Shown here piece after piece: positions 42 through 55,268 of a DNA stretch of 64,000 nucleotides. Source of the DNA: Bacillota bacterium (GTDB lineage Bacteria > Bacillota > Desulfotomaculia > Desulfotomaculales > Desulforudaceae). The position numbers were made by a program, and so were the translations under genes. Each line of letters starts with the position of its first letter. Within the stretch, counting starts at the first letter, position 1. The notes under the pieces are model-generated. The model was given only the letters and a program-made list of their open reading frames with translations, had not been told where the DNA came from and searched no databases. The DNA lies in assembly GCA_040757205.1 (NCBI GenBank), contig JBFLXL010000001.1, forward strand, positions 186,001 to 250,000, read 5' to 3'.

Positions 42-629
42 ATGCAGCTCAAGGGAGTTAAGATCGGCTTCGCGCTTACCGCGTCGTTTTGCACCCTGGA
101 ACCGGTGGTGCGGCAAATCGAACAATTCGTCAAGGAAGGGGCCGAGATCTACCCGATCATGTCCCGGGAAACCGCCACCACTGATACGCGGTACGGGGCC
201 GCTAAACAGTGGATGGGCAGGCTGAGCCTGGTCACTGGGAAGAAGGTGTTCACCAACATCGTCGAGGTTGAACCGATCGGTCCCCAGAAGCTGTTTGACG
301 TGGTCGTGCTTGCTCCGTGCACGGGCAACTCGGTGGCGAAACTCGCCAACGGGATTACGGACGGGCCGGTGTTGATGGCGGCCAAAGCCCAGCTGCGGAA
401 CATGCGTCCGGTGGTCGTCGCCATTTCCACCAATGACGGGCTGGGCTTGAACGCGCGGAACATCGGGACGCTGTTGAACACGCGGAATGTATATATGGTG
501 CCCTTCGGGCAGGACAGCCCGCAGCACAAGCCGAACTCGCTGATCGCGAAGATGGACCTGCTTGGGGCGACCATCATTGAGGCGCTTCAAGGGCGTCAGT
601 TGCAGCCGATCATCGTCACCTTCGGCTAG
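42..629 (+). CDS. dpaB: dipicolinate synthase subunit B (flavoprotein)
   Basis: 195 aa, close to the usual length of DpaB/SpoVFB. The protein belongs to the flavoprotein decarboxylase-like fold; the segments VVLAPCTGNSVAKLANGITD and STNDGLGLNARNIG match this family as I know it. Together with subunit A it converts dihydrodipicolinate to dipicolinic acid in the mother cell during sporulation. The ATG at 42 is preceded by an AGGGGGGTG ribosome binding site. Only 41 bp lie upstream; they may hold the last codons of dpaA (an in-frame TAG at 25-27), which cannot be verified. Downstream lie asd and dapA, the same lysine/DPA order as in Bacillus but without dapG. The last 28 bp before the stop are duplicated downstream (see repeat at 598-707). 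Confidence 0.93.
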   Translation: MQLKGVKIGFALTASFCTLEPVVRQIEQFVKEGAEIYPIMSRETATTDTRYGAAKQWMGRLSLVTGKKVFTNIVEVEPIGPQKLFDVVVLAPCTGNSVAKLANGITDGPVLMAAKAQLRNMRPVVVAISTNDGLGLNARNIGTLLNTRNVYMVPFGQDSPQHKPNSLIAKMDLLGATIIEALQGRQLQPIIVTFG

Positions 630-707
630 AAAAGATTGACAGGCCGCGTTCCAGGTACTCTAAGGCCAAAGTTGCAGCCGATCATCGTCACCTTCGGATG
701 GAAAAGA
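598..707. repeat. repeat-insert-repeat unit A (dpaB/asd junction)
   Basis: Copies at 598-635 and 670-707 (38 bp, 2 mismatches, offset 72) flank an unrelated 34-bp insert. Copy 1 carries the dpaB stop codon. In copy 2 the substitutions turn CTAG into ATGG, which removes the stop and creates an ATG at 698. Confidence 0.9.
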
Positions 708-15569: not shown

Positions 15570-16109
15570 GTGAAAGGGGTGGCGGTCATTAATCTGTTGC
15601 GCGACCGACGCGGGCTGACCCTGGTGGAACTCGTGGTTGCGCTTGCGCTCTTAGGCACGGTGCTGGGAGTGGGGTATTTATTCTTTGACTACGGCTACAG
15701 ATCTTTTGTCGTCGGGGAGTTGCGGTCCAACCTGCAGCGGGACGTGCGGACGGCCGCCGGCGTAATTACGAGAGAATTGCGCCCCGCACATGCGGTTATC
15801 ATCAGTAACGATACCGTTCCCAGGAGCGATCTCCTTGCGGCGGGATATAACTATTTGATTTTGGAGCCGGTTGCTTCAGGCCGGTACCGGATCAAGCGCA
15901 TCGACAGCACGGGAGAGACTGTTTTTAAGACCGAGGGCGTAATTACAGCGCTGGAGTTCGAAGGGAGGGACCGCCTGCTGCTTTTTAGAATTGCGGGGAC
16001 CGATGGAGAGCAGTCCTATGAAATTAAATCCCAGGTGTTGCTTCTAAATACCAGCGTGGCCGCCGCGCCCGGCTGCACGCTGGCCTACGCCAAAACGCCC
16101 CGCCTGTAA
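15570..16109 (+). CDS. minor prepilin, PilW/GspJ-like
   Basis: 179 aa from the GTG at 15570. Leader ends DRRG, then LTLVELVVALALLGTVLGVGY. Length and the RREL-type region (VRTAAGVITRELR) resemble PilW/GspJ minor pilins. An upstream extension in the same frame would overlap the previous gene and is less likely. Its last codons and stop are duplicated 74 bp downstream (unit E). Confidence 0.82.
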   Translation: MKGVAVINLLRDRRGLTLVELVVALALLGTVLGVGYLFFDYGYRSFVVGELRSNLQRDVRTAAGVITRELRPAHAVIISNDTVPRSDLLAAGYNYLILEPVASGRYRIKRIDSTGETVFKTEGVITALEFEGRDRLLLFRIAGTDGEQSYEIKSQVLLLNTSVAAAPGCTLAYAKTPRL

Positions 16110-16185
16110 CAACTCCGAGCCCAAGCCCGTGTTCATCGTCCGGGCCACGCACGCCAACCTACGCCAAAACGCCCCGCCTGTAACA
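16075..16185. repeat. repeat-insert-repeat unit E (after minor prepilin)
   Basis: Copies 16075-16111 and 16149-16185 (37 bp, 3 mismatches, all transitions, offset 74) flank a 37-bp insert. Copy 1 holds the prepilin stop codon; copy 2 lies outside the gene in the convergent intergenic region. Confidence 0.9.
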
Positions 16186-17664: not shown

Positions 17665-18243
17665 TTAGCGCCTTCCGGCCAACGAAAGCATCAACTCCTG
17701 CTCGCCGCTGGTGAGCAGGACGGTGCCGGGGCCGATCTCGGCAACGGTCCAGACGCTTTGCACCAGATCGCCTTCGGACACCACGTAGGCGGCTCCGCCG
17801 GCCTCGATGATGGCCAGGTCGCCCCCGCGGCCGCCCAGGATGACGCCGACCAGTTCCAGGGGGGCCGCAAACGGATCTTTGATCGGTTTGCGCTCGGAAG
17901 TCTCTTCCGGTGGCGGGTCCAGCGGCCTCTTGGTCTCTGGCAATACTTCGTATGCCTGCCCGGCTTTGTCCGTGCCGGTTGCGGGTGGGGCCTGGGGGTT
18001 GGGGACGTTGGCGGCATCGGGCTTCCGGATGGCGTACGCTACCGTGCCCGCGGCGATGACCACCAGCACGACACCCGCCGCCGCGACGATCCGCAGGCGG
18101 CGATTAAAGAACCCGGTCCTGTCGGCGGTCCGTTTCACAAAAGCGCTGCCCGCCGCCGCAACCGCCCGCAGGCGGCGTCTGAAAAACCCGGTCTTGCTGC
18201 TGCCGGTCTGTTCCACGTTGACTTCAAGTTTGTTCTCGGCCAC
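17665..18243 (-). CDS. PilP/GspC-like pilus envelope protein
   Basis: 192 aa. A basic cytoplasmic N-terminus is followed by one transmembrane helix (about 51-70: IVAAAGVVLVVIAAGTVAY), a proline-rich linker and a C-terminal homology-region domain: KDPFAAPLELVGVILGGRGG...AYVVSEGD, the typical pattern of PilP and GspC. The N-terminus contains an internal duplication with a 25-aa period (TGFFRRRLRAVAAAG / TGFFNRRLRIVAAAG; unit K). Upstream gene of the secretin-like protein. PilP normally links PilNO to the secretin. Confidence 0.75.
   Translation of the reverse strand: MAENKLEVNVEQTGSSKTGFFRRRLRAVAAAGSAFVKRTADRTGFFNRRLRIVAAAGVVLVVIAAGTVAYAIRKPDAANVPNPQAPPATGTDKAGQAYEVLPETKRPLDPPPEETSERKPIKDPFAAPLELVGVILGGRGGDLAIIEAGGAAYVVSEGDLVQSVWTVAEIGPGTVLLTSGEQELMLSLAGRR
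18074..18196. repeat. repeat-insert-repeat unit K (inside the PilP-like gene)
   Basis: Copies 18074-18121 and 18149-18196 (48 bp, 9 mismatches, 7 of them transitions, offset 75, in frame) flank a 27-bp insert. Looks older than the other units. Confidence 0.75.
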
Positions 18244-22354: not shown

Positions 22355-24028
22355 GTGCATTCCTTGAAAAGATTGTTGGGATTTTTGTTTGTTCTACTAA
22401 TGGCGCTGCTGTTTTCATTTGCTACGGCTTACGCTGCGGTACCGGCCCAACAAGTCTCACCCTTTGCCGACGTGGATCCCGCCGAGCCCAACCTGCCATT
22501 CGTTAACTACCTGGTAAGCAAGCAGATCGTCGCCGGCTTCCCGGACGGCGCTTTCCGGCCGGCGGAACCCCTGACCCGCGCCCAGGCCACTGCGCTGATG
22601 GTCCGGGCGGCCGGGCTGGAAGCCGGGGATATCGCCACCACTACCTTCCGTGACGTTGCGCCGGGCCACTGGGCCTTTCAGGTCATCGGCGCCGCCGAAC
22701 GGGCCGGCTACCTGAGGGGCTTTCCCGACGGCACTTTCCGGCCCAACGAAGCCCTGACCCGGGCCCAAGCCGCCGCCCTGGTGATGCGGCTGGCCGGTGT
22801 CGGCGTGCCGGAAACGCCCCTGCCCGTGCCGGCCGACCTTCCGCCCGGCCATTGGGGGGCCAATGCCATCGCTGCCGGGCTTGACGCCGGCCTGGTCACC
22901 CGGCTTGACACCGACCGCTTTGCGCCCAACGAACCCGTTACCCGCCTGGAGATGGCCCGCGCCCTGGCCCTGGGCGTCACCCTGAGCCCGGACACCCGCG
23001 AGGTGCCCCTTACCGGGCGGCTGGTGCCCAAGAAAGGCACCGTCGAACTGAAGAGGGCCGGAGAGACTGATTACCGGGTGATTGACAGGGAAGAGGCGGT
23101 CGGCAAGGGTGACTGGATTCGGACCGGAACCGGCAGCCGAGCGGAAATCCTGTTCGACGACGGCAGCGGCTTGCTTTTGCAGGATGGCGTCCGCCTCGGG
23201 ATTAGCGGGGCGCGGGGTCTAACCTACGTACAGCGCAGCGGCTTGCCGGGCGTGGCCGTGGACCGGCTGGAAGTGGACCTCGAGAGCGGGAAGATCTTCA
23301 GCTACCTGTCCGAAAGCTACGGCTACCGGGTTGCTCCGCCGGCTAACCCGGTCACCATCCAGACCGGCGACCAGAGACCCGTCCAGCCGGTCCTGCTCTC
23401 CCAAACGCCCACCCGGCCTGCAGGCGTACCCTGGTGGAAAGAGCCGACGCAGAAACGCGTGCGGGTTCAGGTGAACATGCCGTTCGGCGTGGCCGGTGTC
23501 CGCGGGAGCACGGTGGCCTTCGCCGTCCTGCCCGACGGCCGCGGGGAGATCACCAACCTGACCGGCGACGTGGTGGCGATGTCCGGCGCCCTCGTCGTCG
23601 ACATCCCGCCGAACTTCGCTACGGCGATCGCCTCCCTCGGCGTGGTGGAAATGCCCGAAGAAATGACCATGCAACAGTTGGCGGCTTTTATTGAACTAGA
23701 AGTCCGGGAGTTTCTGGAGCGCCAGGCCACGGTGGCCGAAGAGAACCGGGCCGCCGCGCCTGGCGTGCCGCCGTCTCCGGAAGAAAAGATCTTGCTGGAT
23801 GAAATCGATGAAATCGAAGAAAAGACCTTGCTGGATGAAATCGATGAAATCGAAGAAAAGACCTTGCTGGATGAAATCCGCGACGTGCTCAAGACGGCGG
23901 CGACGACGGTGGAAGCCGGCAGACCCTCTCCGCCGCCTGATGCCGGAGGGGATGCCAGAGGGGACGCCGGAGGGGATGCCGGATGGGGCGCGACACCGCC
24001 AGGCAACGGCTACCACGAGCATTTTTGA
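22355..24028 (+). CDS. S-layer homology (SLH) protein with FecR domain
   Basis: 557 aa. Signal peptide (LLGFLFVLLMALLFSFATAYA), then three SLH domains (about 35-215; FPDGAFRPAEPLTRAQA, FPDGTFRPNEALTRAQA, a diverged third) for cell-wall anchoring. A FecR-like domain follows (about 225-400: AVGKGDWIRTGTGSRAEILF; VNMPFGVAGVRGSTVAF). The tail has an acidic 13-aa repeat LLDEIDEIEEKT and a Gly/Asp-rich end. GTG at 22355 is 10 nt after GGGAGG. Paired with a CHASE2 cyclase downstream, as FecR-type and CHASE2 proteins often are. Probably an exported sensor or scaffold. Confidence 0.85.
   Translation: MHSLKRLLGFLFVLLMALLFSFATAYAAVPAQQVSPFADVDPAEPNLPFVNYLVSKQIVAGFPDGAFRPAEPLTRAQATALMVRAAGLEAGDIATTTFRDVAPGHWAFQVIGAAERAGYLRGFPDGTFRPNEALTRAQAAALVMRLAGVGVPETPLPVPADLPPGHWGANAIAAGLDAGLVTRLDTDRFAPNEPVTRLEMARALALGVTLSPDTREVPLTGRLVPKKGTVELKRAGETDYRVIDREEAVGKGDWIRTGTGSRAEILFDDGSGLLLQDGVRLGISGARGLTYVQRSGLPGVAVDRLEVDLESGKIFSYLSESYGYRVAPPANPVTIQTGDQRPVQPVLLSQTPTRPAGVPWWKEPTQKRVRVQVNMPFGVAGVRGSTVAFAVLPDGRGEITNLTGDVVAMSGALVVDIPPNFATAIASLGVVEMPEEMTMQQLAAFIELEVREFLERQATVAEENRAAAPGVPPSPEEKILLDEIDEIEEKTLLDEIDEIEEKTLLDEIRDVLKTAATTVEAGRPSPPPDAGGDARGDAGGDAGWGATPPGNGYHEHF
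23788..23879 (+). repeat. 39-bp tandem repeat inside the SLH gene
   Basis: About 2.4 copies of a 39-bp unit encoding LLDEIDEIEEKT. Likely a copy-number-variable, coiled-coil-like acidic spacer. Confidence 0.9.
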
Positions 24029-29702: not shown

Positions 29703-30238
29703 GCTTGCTCCGTCTCTTGTTTCCGGACCTTTATGTGCCGACCATTTTTGACGTCGACCCCGAATACCTCCGCCGCCGGGGGATTCGGGGGCTGATTTTC
29801 GACCTGGACAACACCATCCTGGAGCGCGGGGGAAAAGCCCTGCCCCAGGAGGTGCTGGACTGGTTTGAGGTGCTCAAAGCGCAGGGCTTCAAGATTGCGA
29901 TCGTGTCCAACAGCCGCTCCCGCAAGGCCGAGGGGATGGCGGCGTCCCACGGGATTCCGGCCGTCTTTCGGGCGGTGAAGCCGCGGCGCCGGCCGTTTTT
30001 GAAAGCGATCGGTCTGATGGGGCTCACCCGCCGGGAGACGGCGGTGGTGGGCGACCAGATATTCACGGATGTGGTGGGCGGTAACCGCCTGGGGCTTTTC
30101 ACCATTCTGATCAATCCGTTGCCGGGCAAAGAGTTTGTCGGCACCACCCTTTTCAGCCGCCAGTTGGAGAAGCTGTTGCTGCCCCGCATCTGGAACCGCC
30201 ACGGTTTCAGCAAAAGGCCGCGCCATGGTCGACGCTAG
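29699..30238 (+). CDS. yqeG: YqeG-family HAD-type phosphatase
   Basis: 179 aa. HAD motif I in FDLDNTI, motif II in IVSNSR, Lys in RRRPFLKA and motif III in GDQIFTDVVGGNR. Members of family IIIA (YqeG/Gep4-like) are phosphatases; physiological substrate in Firmicutes is not firmly known. yqeG-aroE adjacency also occurs in Bacillus. GTG start overlaps the mobAB stop. Its last codons are duplicated downstream (unit B). Confidence 0.88.
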   Translation: MSLLRLLFPDLYVPTIFDVDPEYLRRRGIRGLIFDLDNTILERGGKALPQEVLDWFEVLKAQGFKIAIVSNSRSRKAEGMAASHGIPAVFRAVKPRRRPFLKAIGLMGLTRRETAVVGDQIFTDVVGGNRLGLFTILINPLPGKEFVGTTLFSRQLEKLLLPRIWNRHGFSKRPRHGRR

Positions 30239-30310
30239 CATGGACAATACGATGGAGGTAGAGGCCCGGGCGGTGGAAGTTTCAGCAGGAGGCCGCGCCA
30301 TGGTCGACGC
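30204..30310. repeat. repeat-insert-repeat unit B (yqeG/aroE junction)
   Basis: Copies 30204-30235 and 30279-30310 (32 bp, 2 mismatches, offset 75) flank a 43-bp insert. Copy 1 ends at the yqeG stop; copy 2 carries the aroE start. The two A-to-G differences create an AGGAGG ribosome binding site in copy 2. Confidence 0.9.
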
Positions 30311-31169
30311 CGGCACCCGGATGGTGGTCCTGCTGGGTCATCCGGTGCACCACAGCTATTCGCCCGCGATGCAGAACGCCGCCTTCCGGGCGGCGGGCCT
30401 GAACCTGGTCTATTTGGCCGCCGCGGTGCCGCCCGAGCGGCTGGTGGCGGCGGTGGCGGCGGTGGCGGCCCTGGACATGCCAGGGGCGAACGTGACTGTG
30501 CCGCACAAGGAACGGGTGACCTCCTTTCTGGACGAGGTCGTCCCGGAGGCCCGCCTGCTCGGGGCCGTGAACACCATCGTGCACCGCGACGGCCGCCTGG
30601 TCGGCCACAACACCGACGGGACCGGTTTTCTGCGTGCGCTCCGGGAGGCCGGGTACGACGCCCGGGGAGAGGCGGCCGTGGTCCTGGGCGCGGGAGGGGC
30701 GGCGCGCGCCGTGGCGCTCAGCCTGGCCATGGAGGGCGCCAAAGAGGTCGTTGTTTTCAACCGGAGTGCGGACCGTGCGCAACAACTTGCCGCGCTGGTG
30801 CGGGAGCGGGGTGGCGAGCGGGCGGAGGCCTTGAGCTGGGAGGCGCTGGAGAAGCAAAGCCGCGAAGCGCGGTCGGCCTTTGCGCGGGCGGGGCTGGTCG
30901 TGCAGACCACCTCCCTGGGGATGTCCCCGCGCCCGGAGGACGGTCCGCCCGTCCCGCCGGAATGGATGTCCGCCAATCATCTGGCGTACGACCTGGTGTA
31001 CAACCCGTCCGAGACCGCCTTTTTGAGGATGGCGCGTCAAGCCGGGGCCCGGACCGCCGGCGGGGCCGGAATGCTCCTTCACCAGGGTGCCGCGGCCTTC
31101 GAGCTCTGGACCGGCCGGGAAGCGCCGATCGGGGTAATGAAACAGGCCCTGGAGGCCTGTCTTGGGTAA
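30300..31169 (+). CDS. aroE: shikimate dehydrogenase
   Basis: 289 aa. Shikimate site [11 protein letters not shown], catalytic Lys70 in NVTVPHKE and Asp106 in NTDGTGF; NADP loop [12 protein letters not shown]-terminal [17 protein letters not shown]. Reduces 3-dehydroshikimate to shikimate. ATG 30300 with AGGAGG 8 nt upstream is the clear start; a longer frame upstream contains the duplicated peptide GRAMVDA twice. First gene of the aroE-C-K-B-pilB run. Confidence 0.94.
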
Positions 31170-34029: not shown

Positions 34030-35717
34030 GGACGGAGGCCGGCCGGAGACTCCTCGGGGAAATCTTGCTTGAGAAGCGGGTGATCACTGCCCAAGCCCTG
34101 GAGGAAGCCCTGGATATTCAAAGGACCACCGGGGAGCGCCTGGGCCGGGTGCTGGTGCACCTGGGCTACGTTAGTGAGCATGCCCTGGTCGAGGCGCTCG
34201 CCGGTCAGTTGGCCATACCGCACGTTTATCTTGACGGCCTGCCGATTGACCCGGAGCTCGTCCGGAGTGTGCCGGAAAAGCTCATCCGCCGTCACAAAGC
34301 GGTGGCGCTGCACCGGGACGGCAATCGGCTGCGGGTGGCGATGTCGGACCCCGTGAACGTGACCGCCGTTGACGACCTGCGCTTGGTTTCGGGGTGTGAG
34401 ATTGATCCGGTGCTGGCGCCGGAATCCGAGTTGGATTTGGTCATTAGAAAGTATGTGGGGTTCCCCGAACTGGAGGAATCCGTCGGGGCGCAGGTCGACG
34501 TCGAGGTGGTGCGCTCCGAAGTGGTGAGCCTCAATCCGGGGGAACCGATGGATGACGAAGCGCCGGTCGTCCGGGTGGTCAATTCGGTCATTATGCAGGC
34601 GATACGTGATGCGGCCAGCGACCTGCACGTGGAGCACCTTGAAGAACAGGTCCGCGTACGGTACCGGGTCGACGGCCTGCTGCGCGACCTTACCGTTTTG
34701 CCGCCGAAGTTCCGTCACCCGTTGGTTTCACGGCTGAAGATAATGGCGCGGCTCGACATCGCCGAGAAACGCGTGCCGCAGGACGGCCGCTTTCAAGTCC
34801 GGTACCGCGGCCGGGAAATAGACTTCCGGGTGTCCACAATGCCGACCGTGTTCGGCGAAAAGGTGGTCATCCGGGTTTTGGACAAGGCCGGGATGATCAC
34901 GTCGGTGGATGAGCTGGGCTTTTCCGCCGTTAATCGCCTGCGCCTGGACCGGATACTCCGCCACCCGTACGGGATGGTGCTGATCACCGGCCCCACCGGG
35001 AGCGGGAAGACCACCACGTTGTACGCCATCCTGAATGAAATGAACTCCCCATCGCTGAACGTAATCACGATCGAGGACCCGGTGGAGTACATTCTGCCGG
35101 GGGTCAACCAGATCCCCATCAACCCCCGGGCCGGGCTGACTTTTGCGCGCGGGCTGCGGTCCATTCTGCGCCAGGATCCCGACATCGTTATGGTGGGCGA
35201 AATCAGAGACGCGGAAACGGCACAAATCGCGGTACGCGCGGCCACCACCGGACATCTCGTGCTTTCCACCCTGCATACCAAGACGGCCGTCGGCTCTTTG
35301 TCCCGGCTGGTGGACATCGGCATTGAGCCCTTTCTGGTCGCCTCCAGCGTGATGGGCGTGGTGGCGCAACGCCTGGCAAGGGTAATCTGCCCCCGCTGCC
35401 GCGAGAGCTACCGCGCGGCCCCGGACGTACTGGAGAGCTTTAAGGGACACACTGCCGAAGAATTTGTAACCCTGCAACGGGGGAGCGGCTGCACCCATTG
35501 CAGCCGGACGGGGTACCGCGGCCGAACCGCCATCGGCGAGGTGTTGCCCATGTCGGCCGTCCTCCGGCAGATGGTGTGTGAGCGTGCCGGCGAGGAGGAC
35601 CTCGAAAGCCAGGCCGTCCGGGAGGGGTTAATTCTAATGAAGGATGACGGCCTGGAAAAAGTGCGCCGCGGAATCACCACCGTAAGCGAAATTGTGCGGG
35701 TAGCCTACGCCGATTAG
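34026..35717 (+). CDS. pilB: type IV pilus extension ATPase PilB (copy 2)
   Basis: 563 aa. An MshEN-type N-terminal domain (about 8-70: LLGEILLEKRVITAQALEEAL, RLGRVLVHLGYVSEHALVEAL) is followed by the ATPase core: Walker A GPTGSGKTT, Walker B DIVMVGEIRD, His box GHLVLSTLHT, and zinc cysteines CPRC and CTHC. GTG start overlaps aroB. This ATPase should drive the cluster 2 pilins. The gene's 3' end is duplicated 70 bp downstream (unit D). Confidence 0.93.
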   Translation: MRTEAGRRLLGEILLEKRVITAQALEEALDIQRTTGERLGRVLVHLGYVSEHALVEALAGQLAIPHVYLDGLPIDPELVRSVPEKLIRRHKAVALHRDGNRLRVAMSDPVNVTAVDDLRLVSGCEIDPVLAPESELDLVIRKYVGFPELEESVGAQVDVEVVRSEVVSLNPGEPMDDEAPVVRVVNSVIMQAIRDAASDLHVEHLEEQVRVRYRVDGLLRDLTVLPPKFRHPLVSRLKIMARLDIAEKRVPQDGRFQVRYRGREIDFRVSTMPTVFGEKVVIRVLDKAGMITSVDELGFSAVNRLRLDRILRHPYGMVLITGPTGSGKTTTLYAILNEMNSPSLNVITIEDPVEYILPGVNQIPINPRAGLTFARGLRSILRQDPDIVMVGEIRDAETAQIAVRAATTGHLVLSTLHTKTAVGSLSRLVDIGIEPFLVASSVMGVVAQRLARVICPRCRESYRAAPDVLESFKGHTAEEFVTLQRGSGCTHCSRTGYRGRTAIGEVLPMSAVLRQMVCERAGEEDLESQAVREGLILMKDDGLEKVRRGITTVSEIVRVAYAD

Positions 35718-35793
35718 GCGCGGGGGAGCACCAGCACAGCATCGACACCCAGGCCCTGAGATTCTGCGGGTAGCTTACGCCGATTAGGCGCGG
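35688..35793. repeat. repeat-insert-repeat unit D (after pilB2)
   Basis: Copies 35688-35723 and 35758-35793 (36 bp, 3 mismatches, offset 70) flank a 34-bp insert. Copy 1 includes the pilB2 stop codon. Confidence 0.9.
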
Positions 35794-40611: not shown

Positions 40612-40656
40612 TTTTCATCCTTCCGATGGTGCCGCTAGAGTGGCATGGTTGTCTTG
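40612..40656. repeat. dispersed repeat R4 (half element)
   Basis: Matches the inverse of 46634-46676 with two mismatches but lacks the CCCTCTCCC module. Confidence 0.8.
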
Positions 40657-40729
40657 AAAGAAGAAAACCCCGCGGGGATCGTCTTTAGAAAGCCGAGCCG
40701 CTAGAGCGGCATGGTTGTCTTGAAAGGAG
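40629..40729. repeat. repeat-insert-repeat unit L (before pilM2)
   Basis: Copies 40629-40663 and 40695-40729 (35 bp, 3 mismatches, offset 66) flank a 31-bp insert. The duplicated segment is the end of repeat R4. Copy 2 carries GAAAGGAG, the likely ribosome binding region of pilM2; copy 1 reads GAAAGAAG. Confidence 0.9.
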
Positions 40730-41827: not shown

Positions 41828-42522
41828 TGCCCAGAGTCAATCTGCTGACCTCCGAAGTCCGGGACTCCGCCAATGTACGCCGGCCGGCCGGGGCTTGGAG
41901 CACGGCTGGGCGGGCAGCCGCCCTGCTCCTCGTGGCTGGTTACGCGCTGTTCCTGCTGGCGGCTTACGCGTCCGGGCTGGAACTGGAGCGGCATCGTGCC
42001 GCCCTCGCGCTCCTCGAACCCGAGGTTCATGCGGTCCTGGAGCTGCGCGCGGAGAGAGAGCGGGCGGAGTCCAGGCTCCAGGCCTGGCGGGAAGCGGCAA
42101 ACCACGGCGGAGAATGGGCGGACTTGCTGGGCCAGGTGACCGGCGTTCTGCCGGCGGATATTTGGCTGACCTCCTTGCACCTTGTCCCCGGGGAAGAGGA
42201 ACCAAACCCCGAACTGGCAGCACCACCCCCGGCGGTGCATCATCCCCTTGTCCCCGGGGAAGAGGAACGAAACCCCGGAGGAAACCCCGATGGTGGTGCC
42301 GGTGGCGGTGCGGGTGAAGAACCCCCGGTGGCGGTGGTGGTGCGGATTGAGGGTGCGGCCGGCACACTGGCCTCGGTGGGGCGGTTTCTCCACGGCCTGC
42401 AGCGGCGGCCCTGCTTTTCGGGGGCCGAACTGCAGAGCGTAAGAGAAGGCAAAGACGGTGTGCTGGTGTTTGCAGTCGATGTGAGATTGGCGGGGAACGG
42501 CCGTGTGGCTGCGTTTGAGTGA
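41827..42522 (+). CDS. pilN: pilus assembly protein PilN (copy 2)
   Basis: 231 aa. PRVNLLTSEVR is the PilM-binding INLLP-type motif; one transmembrane helix (about 30-48), coiled coil, then a C-terminal domain. An in-frame duplication (LVPGEEEPNP / LVPGEEERNP, 22-aa period; unit I) lies in the proline- and glycine-rich linker. Overlaps pilO2 by 20 bp. Confidence 0.85.
   Translation: MPRVNLLTSEVRDSANVRRPAGAWSTAGRAAALLLVAGYALFLLAAYASGLELERHRAALALLEPEVHAVLELRAERERAESRLQAWREAANHGGEWADLLGQVTGVLPADIWLTSLHLVPGEEEPNPELAAPPPAVHHPLVPGEEERNPGGNPDGGAGGGAGEEPPVAVVVRIEGAAGTLASVGRFLHGLQRRPCFSGAELQSVREGKDGVLVFAVDVRLAGNGRVAAFE
42180..42277. repeat. repeat-insert-repeat unit I (inside pilN2)
   Basis: Copies 42180-42211 and 42246-42277 (32 bp, 1 mismatch, offset 66, in frame) flank a 34-bp insert. 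Confidence 0.92.
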
Positions 42523-43267
42523 GTGGGCCCGGAAAAGGGGGATCCGGTGGGGTGCGGCTTTGGCGGCCGTGTTTTTTGTGGTGTACGTGTTCACACCGCA
42601 GTCGACCCGGTTTTTGGAAACCCGGCGCGACATCCGGGGCTTGGAACGCGAGTTGGCGGCGGCCGGGGAGGTCCTGGCCGCGGAGGCGGTCCACCGGGCC
42701 GCGCTTGAGAAGACCGAGGCGGAACTCGGCCGCTTGCGGGGACGGTTTTCGGCCGACGTCACCGACGGAAAGATGATGGCTGAAATCGGGTTCAAGGCGG
42801 CCGCCGCCGGGGTGGACGTTGTGAACTTTCAGCCCCGGGAGGTGCTCCAAAGTGAACACCTGCGGCAATTTCCCGTTGAGATCGGGGTGCGGGGCCGCTT
42901 TTCGGAGGTGGCGACCTTTATGGAACTGCTCCGGAGTCTCTCGAACCCGGCAGAAATCCGCGAGTTCGCCATCCGTGGGGAGCGAGAACCGGAACACGGG
43001 CGGGTGTGGGCTGACTTCCTGCTGGTACTGTATTCAGAGAATAACCCCGCTCGCGCCGCCAAAGGCCCGGACGGTCTCCTCAGCGGTGAGGTACTGTATT
43101 CAGAGAATAACCCCGCTCGCGCCGGTGACTTTGGTGCCGGGGAAAGTGTGCCGCGGCACAATCCGTTTGAACCGTCGGTTTTGGCGGCCGATGCCGACCA
43201 CGGCCCTCAGGAGCCCTTCGCCGTGAACCGGCCGCCTTTTGCGCTTCCTGAAACGGGAGTCAAGTAA
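42503..43267 (+). CDS. pilO: pilus assembly protein PilO (copy 2)
   Basis: 254 aa. Transmembrane helix about 14-32, coiled coil (LERELAAAGEVLAAEAVHRAAL..), PilO domain (GVDVVNFQPREV, FMELLRSLSNPAEIREFAI). Longer than copy 1 because of a C-terminal extension that contains a perfect in-frame duplication (VLYSENNPARA twice; unit J). GTG start. Confidence 0.84.
   Translation: MWLRLSEWARKRGIRWGAALAAVFFVVYVFTPQSTRFLETRRDIRGLERELAAAGEVLAAEAVHRAALEKTEAELGRLRGRFSADVTDGKMMAEIGFKAAAAGVDVVNFQPREVLQSEHLRQFPVEIGVRGRFSEVATFMELLRSLSNPAEIREFAIRGEREPEHGRVWADFLLVLYSENNPARAAKGPDGLLSGEVLYSENNPARAGDFGAGESVPRHNPFEPSVLAADADHGPQEPFAVNRPPFALPETGVK
43024..43124. repeat. repeat-insert-repeat unit J (inside pilO2)
   Basis: Copies 43024-43058 and 43090-43124 are 35 bp and identical; offset 66, in frame, 31-bp insert. 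The lack of differences marks it as the youngest unit. Confidence 0.95.
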
Positions 43268-43290: not shown

Positions 43291-43357
43291 GCAGGACTGA
43301 TGCACGAAGAATAGCCGCAATAGCGGGGGGAAACTATCTCGCGCACCAGTCCCTGGA
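43291..43357. repeat. nested inverted-repeat element between pilO2 and tldD
   Basis: Outer arms 43291-43314 and 43335-43357 are imperfect inverse copies; the loop contains the perfect hairpin CCGCAATAGCGG. The left arm matches 26281-26302 in inverse orientation, and a third partial copy lies at 43389-43402. Confidence 0.65.
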
Positions 43358-43529
43358 AACCTTGATATGGCTCTCGTTATAAAGATCATGCGTCAGTCCT
43401 GGTGTCGCATGGCAGGTGTTGGACGTGTCCGGCCGGATGCTGTAAACTGGAAAGCGATAATATTGGCGCTTGGAACGGCAAAGACTATTGGTGGGCAATC
43501 ATTCTCAATTGTCGGGGGGTTTTTTGTTC

Positions 43530-46790: not shown

Positions 46791-46904
46791 AGGAAGGAGT
46801 GTCGCTCTCGCGCATACTGGTGCTGCACGCGCCCAGGCCCTGCAGCTCACTGGCGCAGATCTTTTAGAAGGGGGTGTTGCTTTTGCGCATACTGGTGCTG
46901 CACG
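46791..46904. repeat. repeat-insert-repeat unit C (aroQ start)
   Basis: Copies 46791-46829 and 46866-46904 (39 bp, 6 mismatches, all transitions, offset 75) flank a 36-bp insert. Copy 2 holds the functional aroQ start; in copy 1 the start TTG reads TCG. Confidence 0.88.
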
Positions 46905-49632: not shown

Positions 49633-50637
49633 GTGACGCCCGCCAATGAGCCGACCAACGGTCGAACTTACGGGGAAGTCTTAAGCTACTTTCCGGCCCC
49701 GCTCCGGGGCATGCTCGGACGGCTGCCGGCTTACCTCTGGCGTGAACTGGAGGAGATCCGGCTCCGGGTCGGCCAACCCCTGATTCTGGCCGCCGCCCGC
49801 GGCGAAATCATGCTGGACGCCGACGGCCGGACCGTACCCGAACCTCAGCAGGCCTACCGGGTGGGAGAGGACGACGTGGCCCGGACGGTGGAGTTGGTGA
49901 CCGGGTCTTCGCTGTACGCGGTTGAAGACGAGCTGCGCCAGGGGTTTGTCACTGTTCCCGGAGGGCACCGGGTGGGTCTGGCCGGCCGGGTGGTGACCGA
50001 TGGCGGTGTGGTGCGGACAATGAAGCACCTTTCCAGGGTGAACTTCCGGATCAGCCGGGAAGTGCCGGGAGCGGCGGACCGGGTGCTGCCCTGCCTGGTA
50101 GGCGGCGCCCGGGCGGTCTACAACACGCTGATCATTTCCCCACCGGGCTGCGGCAAGACCACCCTGCTGCGGGACCTGGTACGGCAGTTCTCCGCCGGGG
50201 TTCCCCGGCTCGGATTTGCCGGGCTGACGGTCGGGGTCGTTGACGAACGGTCGGAAATCGCCGGCTGTTACCGTGGCGTGCCCCAGCTGGACGTCGGTCC
50301 CCGTACCGATGTCCTGGACGGTTGCCCGAAAGCGGAGGGGATGATGATGCTCTTGCGGGCCTTTTCCCCGGACGTGATTGCCACCGATGAGCTGGGACGC
50401 CGCGAAGATGTGGCGGCGGTGGAAGAGATGTTGAACGCGGGCGTAAAGATTTTGGCCACCGCACACGCTGCTTCGCTGGAGGAACTGCGGGGCCGGCCCG
50501 TGTTGCGCTACATCCTGCGGCGGCGCATCATCGAGCGGTTCGTGATTTTGGAGTACGGGCGGGGCCCGGGAGTACTCAAGGCGGTTGTTGACGGCCACAC
50601 GCACCGGGTTGTGGAGGGGTCCTCTTGTTTGCAGTAA
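49633..50637 (+). CDS. spoIIIAA: stage III sporulation protein AA
   Basis: 334 aa secretion-type ATPase. Walker A SPPGCGKTT at 169-177, Walker B-like VIATDELGR, and a degenerate RNA-binding N-terminal domain. It is thought to energise the SpoIIIA-SpoIIQ channel between mother cell and forespore. GTG start after GAGGAGGGG. Confidence 0.95.
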   Translation: MTPANEPTNGRTYGEVLSYFPAPLRGMLGRLPAYLWRELEEIRLRVGQPLILAAARGEIMLDADGRTVPEPQQAYRVGEDDVARTVELVTGSSLYAVEDELRQGFVTVPGGHRVGLAGRVVTDGGVVRTMKHLSRVNFRISREVPGAADRVLPCLVGGARAVYNTLIISPPGCGKTTLLRDLVRQFSAGVPRLGFAGLTVGVVDERSEIAGCYRGVPQLDVGPRTDVLDGCPKAEGMMMLLRAFSPDVIATDELGRREDVAAVEEMLNAGVKILATAHAASLEELRGRPVLRYILRRRIIERFVILEYGRGPGVLKAVVDGHTHRVVEGSSCLQ

Positions 50638-50708
50638 CCGCATGAAGGTTTTCGCATTTTAGGGCCGGTCGCCACGTTGTGGAGGGATCCTCTTGTTTGA
50701 AGTAGCCG
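50608..50708. repeat. repeat-insert-repeat unit F (spoIIIAA/AB junction)
   Basis: Copies 50608-50640 and 50676-50708 (33 bp, 3 mismatches, offset 68) flank a 35-bp insert. Copy 1 carries the spoIIIAA stop; copy 2 supplies the ribosome binding site and TTG start of spoIIIAB. Confidence 0.9.
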
Positions 50709-51967: not shown

Positions 51968-53143
51968 GTGGCGTTAGGCTTGTGGCGGGGATTGTGCGCC
52001 GGTTTGCTGGTGATTTTGCTGTTCGGGGTTCCCGGGCTGTCCTGGGCCGAGTCGCCCGGCGCCGGGGACGACCTCTTTTCTGAACTCGACCTGCGCCAAG
52101 TCGATGAGGCGGCCGGCGTGCTCCGCGCCGAAATCGACGCCGCCCTGCCCGACATGGATTTCAAGACCCTGGCGGTCTCCTTGGCGCGCGGCGATCTCGG
52201 ATACACTCCAGGGGACTTGGCCGCGGCTCTCTGGCGGTATTTCTTCAGGGAGGTGCTCGCCAACGCCGCCCTGCTGGGCAAGCTGGTGGTGCTGGCCGTG
52301 ATCTGCGCGGTGCTCCAGAACATTTCCGGCGCCTTTGAAAAGTCGACCACCAGCCGGATGGCGTATACCGCGGTCTACCTGGCGCTCATCACCATCGCCC
52401 TGGGGTCCTTCGTCATCGCTCTGAACACGGGCCGGGAGGCGATCGAAAACATGGTGGTATTCATGCACGCCATGCTGCCGGTGATGCTGACGTTGCTGTG
52501 CGCGGTGGGCGGGTTTGCTTCGGCGGCGCTGGTCCACCCGCTGATCGTGATTGTGATGAACGCCGCGGCCAACGTGGTCAAAAACGTGGTTTTCCCCCTG
52601 ATTTTCTTTTCCGCCGTCCTGGGAATGATCAGTCACCTGGCCACCGGGTTCTCCCTCTCCCGGTTGGCCGATTTCCTGCGGTATGTGGGCCTGGGGGTAA
52701 TGGGCGTATTGACCACGGTCTTCCTCGGGGTATTGACCATTCAGGGCGTCGCCGGCGCGGTGACCGAGGGCATCGCCTTCCGGACGGCCAAGTACGCCTC
52801 TCAGGCCTTCCTGCCGATCGTGGGCAAGATGTTTTCGGACGCGATGGAGATGATCGTGGGCTCGTCCCTGCTGGTGAAAAACGCCGTGGGCCTGGCCGGA
52901 TTGCTGCTGATCTTTTTGATGGCCCTTTTTCCCCTCCTCAAGATCATCGTTCTGATTGTCATCTACAAACTGGCGGCCGCGCTGGTCCAACCGCTGGGGG
53001 AGTCCAGGCTGTCGGACTGCCTGAACACCCTGGGCAACGGCATTGTCGCCGTTTTCGGCGTGGTGGCCACCTGTGCGCTGTTGTTCTTTTTTGCGCTGGC
53101 CTTGATGACCGGACTCGGGAACCTGACCGTCATGCTGCGGTAG
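51968..53143 (+). CDS. spoIIIAE: stage III sporulation protein AE
   Basis: About 391 aa. Signal peptide (LLVILLFGVPGLSWA), an extracytoplasmic segment, then about six transmembrane helices with the conserved GGFASAALVHPLIVIVMNAAAN. Polytopic channel component. Start uncertain (GTG 51968 or TTG 51980). The open frame continues upstream through 15 bp that recur at 60283-60297. Confidence 0.92.
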   Translation: MALGLWRGLCAGLLVILLFGVPGLSWAESPGAGDDLFSELDLRQVDEAAGVLRAEIDAALPDMDFKTLAVSLARGDLGYTPGDLAAALWRYFFREVLANAALLGKLVVLAVICAVLQNISGAFEKSTTSRMAYTAVYLALITIALGSFVIALNTGREAIENMVVFMHAMLPVMLTLLCAVGGFASAALVHPLIVIVMNAAANVVKNVVFPLIFFSAVLGMISHLATGFSLSRLADFLRYVGLGVMGVLTTVFLGVLTIQGVAGAVTEGIAFRTAKYASQAFLPIVGKMFSDAMEMIVGSSLLVKNAVGLAGLLLIFLMALFPLLKIIVLIVIYKLAAALVQPLGESRLSDCLNTLGNGIVAVFGVVATCALLFFFALALMTGLGNLTVMLR

Positions 53144-53217
53144 GAGAGGATGTAAACAGCATGTACCCCTATGTGATGCGAAAGAACCTGACCGTCACGC
53201 TGCAGCAGGAGGAGGTG
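53119..53217. repeat. repeat-insert-repeat unit G (spoIIIAE/AF junction)
   Basis: Copies 53119-53152 and 53184-53217 (34 bp, 6 mismatches, all transitions, offset 65) flank a 31-bp insert. Copy 1 carries the spoIIIAE stop; copy 2 brings AGGAGG ahead of spoIIIAF. Confidence 0.85.
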
Positions 53218-55172: not shown

Positions 55173-55268
55173 GGTTTTGCCAGGGGCGGGAGGGATAATC
55201 AGCGGACCAACTCGGAAGTGTCCACGCCCTCCTGTTCAGGTTTTGCCAATGGCGGGAGGGATAATCAG
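55173..55268. repeat. repeat-insert-repeat unit H (oadA leader)
   Basis: Copies 55173-55202 and 55239-55268 (30 bp, 2 mismatches, offset 66) flank a 36-bp insert. Copy 2 ends exactly at the oadA TTG start and supplies its GGGAGGG ribosome binding site. Confidence 0.92.

Follow-up and report, generated by a model that had tools for sequence, protein, structure and literature searches.

A 66-bp insertion in a pilO gene and its genome-wide relatives as probable scars of off-target CRISPR spacer integration

The PilO-family gene described here carries a 66-bp insertion that, judging from sequence comparison, was very probably left by a single spacer which the CRISPR Cas1-Cas2 adaptation complex integrated off target. 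Two copies of a 35-bp segment, identical at 35/35 positions, start 66 bp apart with 31 bp between them (Table 1; coordinates refer to the window, that is, the whole 64-kb stretch of DNA that was analysed). An exact 35-bp match at such spacing is far beyond chance. The gene product matches PF04350 in Pfam (E 1.3e-8, residues 48-165), and the peptide VLYSENNPARA occurs twice in its translation, both times in frame. Is there direct evidence for a gain of sequence? In G002, a same-genus genome of a sister species (2,349,476 bp), both flanks of the pilO orthologue align and exactly 66 bp are absent, thus the insertion is shown directly. The first-pass annotation of this DNA had described a 66-bp gain with sharp boundaries, identical copies around an unrelated insert and a doubled peptide, all of which are confirmed; the unduplicated allele that it proposed to look for in relatives was found as well, in a sister species and not within the species. 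An ordinary 66-bp tandem duplication whose middle diverged later would be a common event and would preserve the frame, but the copies are identical and yet the insert is unlike any flank. With G002 empty at the site and other inserts coming from distant places, we give this explanation practically no weight. Between pilO and the downstream TldD/PmbA-family gene there is also a 16-nt inverted repeat (43292-43307 and 43386-43401, 88% complementary).

Table 1. The pilO insertion and the other direct-repeat pairs of the window
Feature	Position	Strand	Evidence or state in G002
PilO-family gene carrying the insertion	42503..43267	+	Pfam PilO match, translation
Duplicated target, copy 1 (35 bp)	43024..43058	+	single copy in G002
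Insert, 31 bp (or 36 bp, should the duplication really be 30)	43059..43089	+	no second genome match
Duplicated target, copy 2 (35 bp)	43090..43124	+	
Pair, offset 72 (598-635 / 670-707)	598..707	+	empty site in G002
Pair, offset 74 (16075-16111 / 16149-16185)	16075..16185	+	no G002 match at site
Likely pair, offset 75, only 81% alike (18074-18121 / 18149-18196)	18074..18196	+	partial G002 alignment
Pair, offset 75 (30204-30240 / 30279-30315)	30204..30315	+	empty in G002; insert 30241-30278 sourced
Pair, offset 70 (35688-35723 / 35758-35793)	35688..35793	+	G002 alignment reaches copy 1
Pair, offset 66, upstream of pilM (40631-40663 / 40697-40729)	40631..40729	+	
Pair, offset 66, in pilN-family gene (42180-42211 / 42246-42277)	42180..42277	+	gapped G002 alignment across site
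Pair, offset 75 (46796-46829 / 46871-46904)	46796..46904	+	
Pair, offset 68 (50608-50640 / 50676-50708)	50608..50708	+	empty site in G002
Pair, offset 65 (53119-53146 / 53184-53211)	53119..53211	+	empty site in G002
Pair, offset 66 (55173-55202 / 55239-55268)	55173..55268	+	empty site in G002

Is the pilO pair a single event, as it had been treated before? It is not, for the window alone has 12 such pairs. The window was scanned for direct repeats at offsets of 15-400, and, local tandem repeats aside, nearly all of the strong ones have offsets of 61-75. The joined flanks of the pairs at 598, 30204, 50608, 53119 and 55173 give uninterrupted alignments to G002, like those of pilO, and clean empty orthologous sites are found in G002 for at least six window sites, pilO included. 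BLAST blocks between the window and G002 break at 598 and 30204, where the subject ranges overlap by 36 and 37 bp. The family extends over the genome. In sampled stretches totalling 796 kb (about 40% of the genome, whose assembly has 26 contigs), there are 50 unfiltered pairs at offsets 64-77, with peaks at 66 and 72-75. Removal of low-complexity and tandem cases leaves 43 direct-repeat pairs of about 30-37 bp with spacer-sized inserts, including the 12 of the window. Their offsets range over 65-78 and cluster at 65-66 and 70-76. The density of pairs is uneven: against the 12 filtered pairs in the 64-kb window, there are six in one 20-kb stretch (L011) and none in many other 20-kb stretches. 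No trend with the replication origin or terminus is visible in a query of about half of the sampled loci, and the stretches adjacent to the window are nearly empty. At 23780-23887 of the window there is also a near-perfect 36-bp tandem repeat, which runs for about 2.8 copies and has a 9-bp unit within it.

The inserts at different sites are unrelated in sequence to one another, therefore no mobile element is involved, and an insertion sequence or MITE is ruled out on the same ground. There might still be a small mobile element with short cargo or some integrase not yet described, making target duplications of about 30-37 bp; it would account for the many sites being hit repeatedly. However, inserts that share no sequence do not make an element, and the CRISPR-unit sizes would be left without reason, so we regard this as very unlikely. 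Note that the scattered pairs also differ from a CRISPR array: usually there are two copies per site, each duplicating its own local sequence. The duplicated targets show no overall resemblance to the CRISPR repeats of the arrays.

The offsets are those of CRISPR units. One CRISPR-Cas system was detected in this genome, a type I-A system with csa1, cas4, cas2, cas1, cas7 and cas3 on contig C10, so that Cas1, Cas2, Cas4 and Csa1 are all encoded. The genome's own type I-A array, on contig C7, has a 37-bp repeat and 47 spacers of 35-39 bp, with a period of 72-76. G002 has the same array type (period 71-77) and a second system of type I-B, with a 30-bp repeat and a modal period of 66. Each of the two groups of offsets among the scattered pairs corresponds to one of these periods, 70-76 to that of the own type I-A array and 66 to that of the type I-B array of G002; the pilO offset of 66 equals the latter. 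What about the length of the duplication itself? For offsets 64-68 the likelihood is highest near 30 and flat to 33. For offsets 69-78 its maximum is broad and depends on the assumed match rate, near 36 at 0.90 and about 32 at 0.94, to which small indels in some copies contribute; thus duplications of the type I-A class are not tied closely to 37 bp. The pilO pair itself reads as 35 bp duplicated and 31 bp inserted, not 30 and 36, and under the latter division its five extra matching bases would have to be chance.

How could such a structure be formed? In CRISPR arrays it is established that Cas1-Cas2 performs staggered joining and that gap filling duplicates the repeat. Outside an array, Cas1-Cas2 would join the ends of a prespacer of about 36 bp to opposite target strands, at points separated by roughly the length of a repeat. 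Filling of the gaps would then duplicate the target on both sides of the fragment, giving copy, insert and copy. We infer that Cas1-Cas2 was the agent of this chemistry, a step further than the insertions, the family, the offsets, the empty sites and the chromosomal origin of three inserts with CC upstream, which can be read off the sequences. The resident type I-A complex would suffice for most sites. For the 66-offset class, pilO included, a type I-B-like complex as in G002 would have acted, and would since have been lost or left unassembled. That class lacks an integrase here because type I-B cas1, a second cas2 and a second cas6 were not found in the 97.5% complete assembly (each of these genes is single) and the 30-bp repeat of G002 is absent from it. 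The assumed type I-B-like integrase is the weakest link of the account, also because the duplication in pilO reads as 35 bp and not 30.

Where do the inserts come from? Three of them have a source. The insert at L018:11765-11803 has a second copy (36/39) elsewhere in this genome; that at 30241-30278 of the window matches G002 at 2,271,054-2,271,090 (34/38), well away from the orthologous site; and for the insert at L010:7184 it is the last 36 bases that match G002, at 2,206,520-2,206,555 (30/36, E 0.008), the weakest of the three matches. In all three the similarity spans the insert and ends at or within 1-2 bases of the insert ends. What is more, CC stands just upstream of the source in 3/3 cases, for which the probability by chance is estimated as roughly 0.1-0.7%. 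These three inserts thus look like PAM-selected, self-derived spacers, which is suggestive and not conclusive. Note that CCN is among the type I-A PAM subfamilies (PMC4390879). Within its own genome the pilO insert matches nothing else, so it is not local sequence, in agreement with the first-pass annotation, which had called insert and flanks unrelated. The search for its source, which that annotation had suggested, gave no match in 60 relatives, nothing in phage records, and no exact 20-mer in IMG/VR. An exact 20-mer of the insert matched one Saprospiraceae contig (genome_contigs), and this was judged to be chance. It is then doubtful that pilO is the best place to study the mechanism, as had been held, since sources were found for the insert at 30241-30278 and for two outside the window, and none for that of pilO.

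Chromosomal sources also fit another explanation, in which nicks about 35 bp apart on opposite strands, or a staggered double-strand break, were filled in at both overhangs, with filler DNA captured before end joining. Captured chromosomal fragments are a usual filler, three inserts here are chromosomal copies, and the copy-insert-copy anatomy would be the same. However, such repair does not predict two CRISPR-unit offset classes, spacer-sized inserts or CC beside the sources; fill-in duplications at staggered breaks are not known to keep to fixed lengths, as if set by a ruler, or to draw on sources with a PAM-like motif. We consider this explanation unlikely, though it is the most probable of the alternatives to off-target Cas1-Cas2 integration.

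Is there any preference in the choice of site? The first duplicated base is G in 22/33 clean sites (P 3e-5), and the other end of the duplication shows no such preference in these 33 sites. The preference resembles that seen in vitro, where Cas1-Cas2 of Streptococcus thermophilus integrates off-target at G in 54-57% of sites (PMC6895254). In six of the 12 window sites the stop codon of a long ORF lies inside copy 1, and two of the 12 are in frame inside the pilN and pilO genes. The surviving insertions would then be near-neutral ones, in frame or at gene ends, and therefore the true insertion rate is probably above what the record holds.

When did the insertions take place? No pairs at these offsets were found in about 220 kb of G002, nor in 60 and 80 kb of two other relatives. 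Several such pairs are present in 211 kb of G001, a same-genus genome that is 94.5% identical over 68 kb. G001 shares five insertions that lie outside the window, at the same places and with the same inserts, and the sites L112:3956 and L003:1501 are empty there. Because five sites are shared and two are empty, insertion took place before the split from G001 and, on the simplest reading, after it too. The shared sites also bear on whether the pairs are an assembly artefact. The genome is in 26 contigs, which would leave room for one, but the same five insertions in a separate genome, together with copies that diverged by point changes, make an artefact hardly credible. The first-pass annotation had called the pilO event recent from the complete identity of its copies. 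At the mean copy identity of 93%, a 35-bp pair would be perfect by chance about 9% of the time. Besides, the copies at L013:5338 are just as perfect, although that pair arose before the split from G001. At L117:12289 (L137:12015 in G001) both copies are alike within each genome with one base different between the genomes, and this concerted change suggests gene conversion between copies. Perfect identity is weak evidence of youth and "recent" is not secure; dating by copy identity was dropped because of gene conversion and the shared perfect pair.

Cas1-Cas2 is known to integrate off target in vitro and when the proteins are over-expressed, and such integration has been proposed as an origin of new CRISPR arrays. 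Nivala, Shipman and Church (2018, Nat Microbiol) reportedly described such integration, named "neo-CRISPR", mostly with over-expressed E. coli type I-E proteins and with a few natural cases. The scars here share with those events a spacer-sized insert between duplicated chromosomal targets of about repeat length outside arrays, but they are natural and partly old, number in the dozens within one lineage, fall into two size classes and include chromosome-derived inserts. PMC11788318 cites Nivala et al. (2018) for Cas1-Cas2 integration outside arrays. In S. thermophilus, ectopic spacer acquisition takes place inside arrays (PMC7999890); it is likewise integration away from the leader-proximal repeat, but within an existing array, whereas the scars here lie in ordinary genes and gaps. 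Compared with the canonical arrays of the lineage (type I-A with 37-bp and type I-B with 30-bp repeats), the unit and spacer lengths are the same, but local sequence is duplicated, there is no leader and no shared repeat, and usually only one insert. In a literature search that was thin on subscription journals, no paper on a natural genome with many such scars was found. Thus off-target integration is already known, and what appears to be new is how common it is in a natural genome, the division into two size classes and the chromosomal origin of inserts.

What would this mean for the genome? We lean, with some reserve, to a scenario in which CRISPR adaptation has been a source of mutation throughout the genome of this lineage. 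Cas1-Cas2 complexes under poor restraint, of two types in the course of time, would have put spacers, some of them demonstrably chromosomal, at about 100 places (43 in 40% of the genome, extrapolated to the whole), so that proteins were lengthened in frame, gene ends were rewritten and small arrays without a leader were seeded. In S. islandicus, Csa3a was proposed to restrain off-target integration (PMC9456107). If the scenario is true, the scars would preserve, as fossils do, how targets were chosen, what ruler set the lengths, which PAMs were used and how self DNA was captured, some of them with traceable sources, and an immune system would be seen to supply ordinary genes steadily with short in-frame insertions. 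The empty sites in a sister genome make each step testable.

Some further observations concern arrays and the CRISPR locus. Three sites have three copies with two different inserts each, at about the CRISPR period (L014:11966-12160, L010:7173-7360 and L011:5003-5180); possibly they are small arrays growing outside the main locus. One pair of this kind sits where csa1 begins, within the adaptation module itself on contig C10 (L003:1501-1607), the site that is empty in G001. A HepT-family toxin gene adjoins cas1 (L003:4206-4640). In the main CRISPR array (L101:8695-12268), two neighbouring spacers recur as a block a few units away.
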